Below, in pieces: positions 17,639 through 19,674 of a stretch of 64,000 nt of DNA (positions are counted from its first letter, which is position 1; every line of letters begins with the position of its first letter). Source of the stretch: Burkholderiaceae bacterium (GTDB lineage: Bacteria > Pseudomonadota > Gammaproteobacteria > Burkholderiales > Burkholderiaceae_D); NCBI GenBank assembly GCA_031291325.1, contig JARLJG010000028.1, positions 1 to 64,000 on the forward strand, given 5' to 3'. The position numbers were made by a program, and so were the translations under genes. Under the pieces are notes generated by a model. It searched no databases. It saw only the letters and a list, made by a program, of their open reading frames with translations, and was not told the DNA's origin.

Positions 17639-18691
<1,053 letters not shown>

Positions 18692-18715
18692 TTAATGAAA
18701 CTTTTTCCTGGCAAT

Positions 18716-18838
18716 CCTATCTGACGTATAGGTGATCACTCACCTCCCGCTTCTCCTCCCTGAGCGGGGCCGTATCGCCCAATGAACGATAAGGCATTCC
18801 TACCCTGGAGATACTCCCCTTTCTCCAGGGTTTTTTTT
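18716..18838 (+). ncRNA. Candidate small RNA with multiple hairpins and intrinsic terminator
   Basis: Five inverted repeats follow each other with almost no gap: CCTAT/ATAGG; GGTGA/TCACC; CCCGCT/AGCGGG; an 8-bp stem with one mismatch (GCCGTATCG/CGATAAGGC); and CCCTGGAGA/TCTCCAGGG followed by eight T. The third hairpin exposes the loop TCTCCTCCCTG, which is complementary to Shine-Dalgarno sequences, a common sRNA seed. No + strand gene lies immediately upstream that would need this terminator. The first two stems share bases, so they are alternatives. No convincing promoter was identified. It lies convergent to engB, as Spot 42 does in E. coli and ErsA in Pseudomonas, but no sequence similarity to them is claimed. 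Confidence 0.6.
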
Positions 18839-18839
18839 C

Positions 18840-18959
18840 GGGCATCTCTCAAAACTGCCAAAAGCACCCAATTTCAAGCCTGCGGTGCTCAATGTACTTG
18901 CGTACATTTCCGCTCCTCGGCTCGAACTTGGGCGCTTTTGACAATTTTTAGAGATGCCC
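18840..18959. repeat. 120-bp imperfect palindrome next to engB
   Basis: The ends GGGCATCTCT and AGAGATGCCC are perfect 10-bp inverted repeats. Pairing continues through most of about 42 bp on each side (for example AAAAGCACCCAA against TTGGGCGCTTTT). The tip is AATGTAC-TTGC-GTACATT. It is an extrapolated full-length cruciform or long hairpin. It begins two bases after the T tract of the candidate sRNA and ends at the engB stop codon. The form suggests a nonautonomous mobile repeat; it could also end the engB transcript. Confidence 0.8.
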
Positions 18960-18960
18960 T

Positions 18961-19674
18961 TTATCCTTTATCTCTTTCCGTTTCGACCGCTTCGCTGTCG
19001 ACCTGTGCAGGTCGATTCAAACCCAGCAACTCGATAATCTTGTCGTTTGCTTCTTCCAAGCCCGTCCTTTTCAACGCGGAAAACAGTTGTGCGGTAAACG
19101 GGAAGGGCTTGCCCGCTTCGTCCACATAGCTGCTTAACAGCGTCTGCGCTTGCCGCAACGCATTGGTCGAGTCGTTGCGGTTGAGCTTGTCGGCTTTGGT
19201 CAAAATGCAATGTATTGGCTTGCCGGTGGGCGCAAACCAATTCAGCATCTGGATATCCAGGTCGGTAAACGGACGCCGGCAATCGACGATCAAGATCAGC
19301 GCGGCCAATTGCTCGCGGTGCTGCACATAGTCGCCCAGCAACTCTTGCCAATGCAATTTGGCCGTGCCGGACACTTCCGCGTAACCGTAACCCGGCAAGT
19401 CGACCAGTAGCGCGCGGATCTCATCGACCTTGGTTTCATCCTTGCGATGCTGCCCGACATGCGCGCCGCCAATCGAAAAATAATTGATATGCTGGGTGCG
19501 TCCCGGGGTTTTCGAGGCGAATGCCAGCTTTTTCTGGTTGCATAAAATGTTGATGGCGGTCGATTTGCCGGCGTTGGAACGGCCCGCAAACGCAATCTCG
19601 GGAACTTGCGTATTTGGCAAGTCGCGAAGATGATTGACCGTTGTAAAAAAACGGGCTTGCCAAAGTTGTGACAT
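18961..19674 (-). CDS. engB: Ribosome biogenesis GTP-binding protein EngB/YihA
   Basis: All five GTPase motifs are present: GRSNAGKST (G1), TPGRTQ (G2), DLPGYGYA (G3), TKADKL (G4) and FSALK (G5). EngB is a small GTPase required for late assembly of the large ribosomal subunit. The 237-residue length is typical of Betaproteobacteria, with a short acidic C-terminal tail. It is divergent from the cytochrome c4 gene across a 161-bp region that must hold both promoters. Confidence 0.95.

Follow-up and report, generated by a model that had tools for sequence, protein, structure and literature searches.

The segment at 18730-18838 (+) of the window (the whole 64,000-nt stretch of DNA analysed here) encodes, by sequence comparison, the local member of the catalogued anti-hemB small RNA (sRNA) family RF02837, and this RNA is probably a sigma-E-induced, Hfq-bound, trans-acting regulator with CU-rich loops that would cover ribosome-binding sites. 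The Rfam model matches 18743-18838 (+) with 57.5 bits, above its gathering score of 49.5 (E = 8.5e-11), which confirms the candidate small RNA of the initial annotation as anti-hemB, a family with a transcript already on record in Burkholderia. The sRNA is not new in itself because the Burkholderia cenocepacia member, ncS04, has been published; new with respect to the published record that we searched are the 5' hairpin that completes the structure, a sigma-E-type promoter pointing to RpoE as the probable regulator, a class-wide range together with engB and a probable kinship with ErsA of Pseudomonas. The features of the locus are collected in Table 1.

Table 1. Features of the sRNA locus and its flanking genes in the window.
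Feature	Position	Strand	Basis or remark
anti-hemB sRNA, predicted 109 nt	18730..18838	+	start inferred from promoter and 5' hairpin
-35 element GAAACTT	18697..18703	+	match GAAACTTTT..TCTGA at 18697-18724; consensus comparison, matrix
-10 element TCTGA	18720..18724	+	16 nt after the -35 element
Hairpin 1, AGGUGA/UCACCU	18730..18745	+	covaries in 41 dereplicated relatives; absent from the Rfam model
Hairpin 2, CCCGCU/AGCGGG	18746..18768	+	near-invariant loop UCUCCUCCCUG at 18752-18762; main anti-Shine-Dalgarno site
Hairpin 3, GCC.UAUCG/CGAUA.GGC	18769..18795	+	8 bp with one mismatch; fold; relatives refold with different sequence
Hairpin 4, intrinsic terminator ACCCUGGAGA/UCUCCAGGGU plus eight T	18802..18838	+	fold and class alignment
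Second CU-rich loop UACUCCCCUU	18812-18821	+	within hairpin 4; 98% unpaired
hemB, porphobilinogen synthase	17639..18655	-	NCBIfam NF006762, 512.7 bits; divergent neighbour in Betaproteobacteria
engB (yihA/ysxC), ribosome-biogenesis GTPase	18961..19674	-	TIGR03598, 203 bits; convergent with the sRNA; neighbour kept across Gammaproteobacteria

The predicted RNA folds on its own into four hairpins, almost free of spacers and closed by an intrinsic terminator, with a fold energy of -44.3 kcal/mol, whereas dinucleotide-shuffled sequences average -26.3 +/- 3.3 (z = -5.4; none of the 200 shuffles did as well). The four consecutive stems and eight T described in the initial annotation were all recovered, and of its span, 18716-18838, the end stands, while 18716 falls within the promoter, the RNA being predicted to start at about 18730. 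Both features of anti-hemB RNAs, the hairpin carrying the UCUCCUCCCUG loop and the intrinsic terminator, are present, and the two CU-rich loops, both complementary to Shine-Dalgarno (SD) sequences, have predicted unpaired probabilities of 0.79 (UCUCCUCCCUG) and 0.98 (UACUCCCCUU). A covariance model built class-wide, R1, matches 18727-18838 with 76.8 bits, the window sequence being among those from which the model was built. That the locus holds just a terminator, or stems formed by chance, as one could argue given that even the terminator was absent from the output of a pattern scan, has next to no probability in view of the z-score of -5.4, the covariation described below and the Rfam match, and the transcript of the published relative already refutes it.

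The sRNA gene lies between hemB and engB, in the order <- -> <- that characterizes anti-hemB loci. With both neighbours on the - strand, as NCBIfam confirms, there is no + strand protein gene in need of a terminator, in agreement with the initial annotation; a + strand open reading frame at 18782-19129 matched no Pfam family. Downstream of the sRNA terminator, a 120-nt inverted-repeat element (18840-18959; 41-nt arms, 85% complementary) takes up the whole interval as far as the engB stop codon and may act as the engB terminator. At least 8 other pieces of the same genome match this element partly or fully (1.59 Mb examined), the longer matches being ~74-87% identical, with none in PLSDB plasmids, and the element resembles a dispersed MITE- or REP-like repeat.

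The member ncS04 of B. cenocepacia J2315 is described as a 105-nt RNA (chromosome 1, 292949-293053) in the gene order <- -> <-, flanked by BCAL0264/BCAL0265, with the 5' end mapped by dRNA-seq, the 3' end by RACE and a signal on Northern blots; it co-purified with Hfq, and its level by qPCR was steady in seven J2315 conditions, including osmotic stress and low pH (PMC5688073, PMC4603805). The window sRNA resembles ncS04 and the anti-hemB family in gene order, orientation, length, hairpins 2-4 and the CU-rich loop, whereas hairpin 1 is left out of the Rfam model. The ~105-nt Hfq-binding transcript is published for J2315 only, the window member being a predicted RNA of 109 nt (median predicted length over 135 loci, 104 nt). 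In the accessible portions of the non-subscription literature that uses the names "anti-hemB" or RF02837, we found no function or regulator reported and saw no range beyond Burkholderia-like bacteria.

Within Betaproteobacteria, RF02837 exceeded its threshold in 81 of the 146 family genomes and in 86 of the 120 order genomes. Of 30 family loci, 29 have the RNA flanked by hemB and engB (the thirtieth, a shorter locus, yielded no engB), as do 97 of 119 hairpin-pattern loci spread over Rhodocyclaceae, Thiobacillus, Methylophilales and others. Across 52 loci, comprising the window and the Rfam-model loci, hairpin 2 reads CCCGCTTC[T/A]CCTCCCTGAGCGGG and is invariant save for one position, a figure somewhat biased by having been read out with a looser form of the same pattern; the hairpin-pattern loci, selected by the hairpin 2 sequence itself, were left out of this count. 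Hairpin 1 covaries according to a permutation of its arms: the mean paired run among 41 dereplicated relatives is 6.59 bp, compared to 4.97 +/- 0.17 bp when 3' arms are swapped between species (500 permutations, maximum 5.44 bp). The stems are thus kept in relatives with compensatory changes, and a homologous transcript is known from one of them, the two points on which the initial annotation had staked its proposal. The window's genome has a single anti-hemB locus, three weaker RF02837 matches coinciding with double-hairpin loci of RF02278. Some other genomes carry the sRNA in two to four copies arranged in tandem ~200 bp apart (L273, L271, L262 in G351, L268 in G371; G176:C12, G219:C54), and at L271 and L273 (G391:C5, G413:C33) there are two sigma-E-type promoters in tandem.

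Five to six nucleotides 5' of hairpin 1, the family shares the promoter consensus GGAACTTTT-N16-TCTtA, more generally GGAACTTTT-N16-TCTNA, which is the sigma-E (RpoE) promoter consensus. At least 9 of the 11 consensus letters were found in 80 of 122 dereplicated loci, compared to 0.4 expected from shuffles, with a spacer of 16 dominant; the window promoter scores 22.9 with the corresponding weight matrix. This matrix was derived from sRNA promoters alone, with no prior rpoE matrix, and nevertheless reached a score of at least 12 upstream of rpoE in 21 of 30 order genomes, while no in-gene control among 30 did so (Wilcoxon p = 3e-6). Since rpoE genes usually transcribe themselves and the matrix finds their promoters, the sRNA and rpoE promoters appear to belong to one sigma factor. 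The window's genome has an rpoE-rseA-rseB cluster preceded by TGAACTATT-N16-GTCAATA, so that the features looked for in a sigma-E-dependent sRNA, the GAACTT-N16-TCTNA promoter, RpoE with RseA/RseB and an rpoE promoter of the same type, are found together. Among 60 genomes of the order, the sRNA is missing in 5 of 6 without RpoE and in 11 of 54 with it (Fisher p = 0.004), a co-occurrence that is only supportive because it is uncorrected for relatedness. From these comparisons we infer RpoE as the regulator of the anti-hemB sRNA.

In 1.59 Mb of the genome, the sRNA promoter is the best matrix site (22.0; next 18.3). The same scan gave no excess over the backward control (15 versus 37 sites), so the matrix by itself defines no regulon, and the exact pattern GAACTT-N15-17-TCTGA occurs at 3 sites in this genome against 2 in the backward control and misses the local sRNA, which has AAACTT. 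Two other high-scoring sigma-E-type sites of the window's genome lie 61 nt before a gene for a small secreted protein (L353, ~417, +) and 111 nt before that of a cyclopropane-fatty-acid synthase, putative on sequence grounds (L395, ~11294, +).

Alternatively, the housekeeping sigma factor could drive constitutive transcription of the same sRNA, and the GAACTT-TCTNA pattern would be incidental. The steady level of ncS04 under seven conditions is in line with this, and strong constitutive expression of ncS04 would weaken a stress role; to our knowledge, none of the seven is a classical sigma-E inducer. We consider such constitutive control improbable, given that the motif and its spacing are conserved across Betaproteobacteria and other Gammaproteobacteria and that it matches rpoE promoters. 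A sigma-70 scan of 18000-19500 detected no site ahead of the sRNA, and a housekeeping promoter was rejected on this basis.

The same four-hairpin RNA and its promoter occur far outside Betaproteobacteria, convergent to engB. Among 184 spread Gammaproteobacteria genomes, 92 match RF02837 at E <= 0.001 and 11 score above the Rfam threshold; single weak hits mean little, because the control genomes of E. coli, Caulobacter and Deinobacterium also give them. At 50 of the matching loci, all from other orders, engB is downstream and convergent in at least 31, with no engB detectable in 16 more, which are short pieces, and the promoter matrix reaches 12 or more in 40, a score attained by 0.3% of shuffles. 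In a class-wide alignment made by MAFFT and not fitted to the structure, both sides have changed in 13 of 14 pairs of hairpin 2 and the terminator, including 8 of the 9 terminator stem pairs changed somewhere in the class, and compensatory cells number 85 compared to 20 +/- 5.5 after shuffling, a signal that breaks down once the partners are displaced by one column.

This distribution bears on the Rfam name, which would have the RNA regulate hemB in cis, as an antisense or through promoter interference. The sRNA promoter runs on the strand opposite to hemB, ~40 nt upstream of the start codon of this gene, and hemB adjoins the sRNA in Betaproteobacteria; yet the hemB coding sequence lies wholly outside the RNA, whose constrained parts are loops suited to pairing in trans, and hemB was found beside it at 0 of the 50 loci outside Burkholderiales, where the RNA, the promoter and engB remain. 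Regulation of hemB in cis is therefore very unlikely, and its antisense form was rejected because the RNA stays with engB outside Burkholderiales with hemB not found alongside. "Anti-hemB" is accordingly a misnomer, the constant neighbour being engB.

The initial annotation had pointed out that the position is that of Spot 42 and ErsA, which is borne out by the convergence to engB, and had claimed homology with neither. This caution holds for Spot 42 (E. coli spf), which shares the position convergent to yihA/engB but shows no similarity above baseline and no sigma-E-type promoter: kinship was rejected at 15.7 bits, the level of double-hairpin RNAs, and a best promoter matrix score of -1.3. 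For ErsA it proved too strict, in view of the link through promoter, position and class-wide model. The 132-nt ErsA is encoded between polA and engB and strictly requires sigma22, which is functionally homologous to sigma-E (PMC8575079, PMC7565897). In the Pseudomonas family, identified by its PrrF RNA, the promoter matrix reached 12 or more at 17 of 30 engB loci, preceding an RNA of ~131 nt that we call ErsA by position and length rather than by comparison with the P. aeruginosa sequence. The class-wide covariance model, which knowingly includes no Pseudomonas-family sequence, picked the same 17 loci independently (19-33 bits, 16 of them at E <= 4e-4), compared to 13-18 bits for Spot 42 and double-hairpin RNAs.

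Like anti-hemB, ErsA is convergent to engB and has a sigma-E-type promoter (sigma22), a 5' hairpin, a CCCC-type hairpin 3, a CU-rich terminator loop and a long U tail. Unlike anti-hemB, it lacks the CUCCUCCC hairpin and has a U-rich, unstructured pairing region between the first two stem-loops, where the window sRNA has hairpin 2 with its CU-rich loop; on the other side, ErsA is flanked by polA and the window sRNA by hemB. We lean towards the descent of both from one ancestral sigma-E-controlled, engB-adjacent sRNA present throughout Gammaproteobacteria (Betaproteobacteria included), with Pseudomonas swapping the CUCCUCCC hairpin for the U-rich region. Such descent is likely rather than proven, because that hairpin is missing and the score stems partly from the terminator. 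Convergence, by which a sigma-E sRNA of separate origin would have arisen at a favourable site beside engB, is a less probable though quite conceivable origin: it would account for ErsA pairing through a U-rich region in place of the CUCCUCCC hairpin and for scores of 19-33 bits that rest largely on the terminator and hairpin 3 and lie not far from the 13-18 bits of Spot 42 and double-hairpin RNAs, but it would have to produce the coincidence of position, orientation, promoter type, 5' hairpin, CCCC-type hairpin 3 and CU-rich terminator loop.

In the mechanism that we propose, RNA polymerase with RpoE would transcribe the sRNA from GAAACTT-N16-TCTGA, from about 18730 to the terminator at 18838, and the resulting 109-nt, four-hairpin RNA would expose the loops UCUCCUCCCUG and UACUCCCCUU. 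With Hfq, as may be extrapolated from J2315, these loops would pair with the SD regions of several mRNAs, blocking the translation of selected proteins under envelope stress; the sRNA would thus act in trans and not as an antisense regulator of hemB. The initial annotation had suggested that a CU-rich loop could pair with ribosome-binding sites, and the predicted accessibility of both loops supports this. The near-absolute conservation of UCUCCUCCCUG in spite of different mRNAs fits pairing with a part shared by many ribosome-binding sites. CU-rich anti-SD action would have parallels in Neisseria, where the NmsR RNAs act through anti-SD sequences (PMC5362039), and probably in Bordetella, where the sites at which S17 anneals to a target that it represses should keep ribosomes from binding (PMC11722255). 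Outer-membrane proteins were examined as candidate targets: preferential pairing with their start regions gave p = 0.08, or 0.02 when corrected for SD strength, in an underpowered comparison of just 9 candidates resembling such proteins among 1392 genes, a third of the genome, predicted with a crude gene caller.

Anti-SD loops also occur in other RNA families. The double-hairpin RNAs of RF02278 (ncS27, toxic sRNAs) and Bordetella S17 share with anti-hemB the CU-rich anti-SD regions and a strong terminator but are shorter, with another fold and another locus. A relationship with the RF02278/ncS27 RNAs, which tune carbon and amino-acid metabolism, with no envelope-stress role for the window sRNA, is suggested by the CU-rich anti-SD stretches of both, by weak cross-matches of the two Rfam models and by the slower growth on ncS27 overexpression; we regard it as rather unlikely, since RF02278 scores the window sRNA below threshold (15.1 bits, the gathering score being 50), the number of hairpins differs and the GAACTT-TCTNA pattern was not seen by eye upstream of the local RF02278 loci. 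The window's genome contains four RF02278 RNAs above threshold and one just below (L004-L008: contig 34:7474, contig 29:14358 and 14627, ~270 bp apart, contig 67:22335 and contig 68:32706). The alphaproteobacterial ar14/cuckoo RNAs (NfeR1) likewise carry the anti-SD motif in hairpin loops, but their model gives the window sRNA 25.7 bits against a threshold of 58.8, and they have three copies of CCUCCUCCC (PMC10746234) where the window sRNA has one near-copy.

The analysis corrects the Rfam model, which misses the 5' hairpin and recognizes few members outside Betaproteobacteria (the 11 of 184 class genomes above threshold), and where the Rfam name suggests hemB regulation, the conserved RpoE-type promoter gives the family a testable physiological role. 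If the RNA is the counterpart of ErsA, the findings on ErsA and the work on RpoE-dependent sRNAs of E. coli would guide the study of an envelope-stress RNA of many Betaproteobacteria, among them Burkholderia, Noviherbaspirillum, Thiobacillus and Dechloromonas, and of many uncultured Gammaproteobacteria, and, given descent from one ancestor, anti-hemB and ErsA together would rank among the most widely conserved envelope-stress RNAs.
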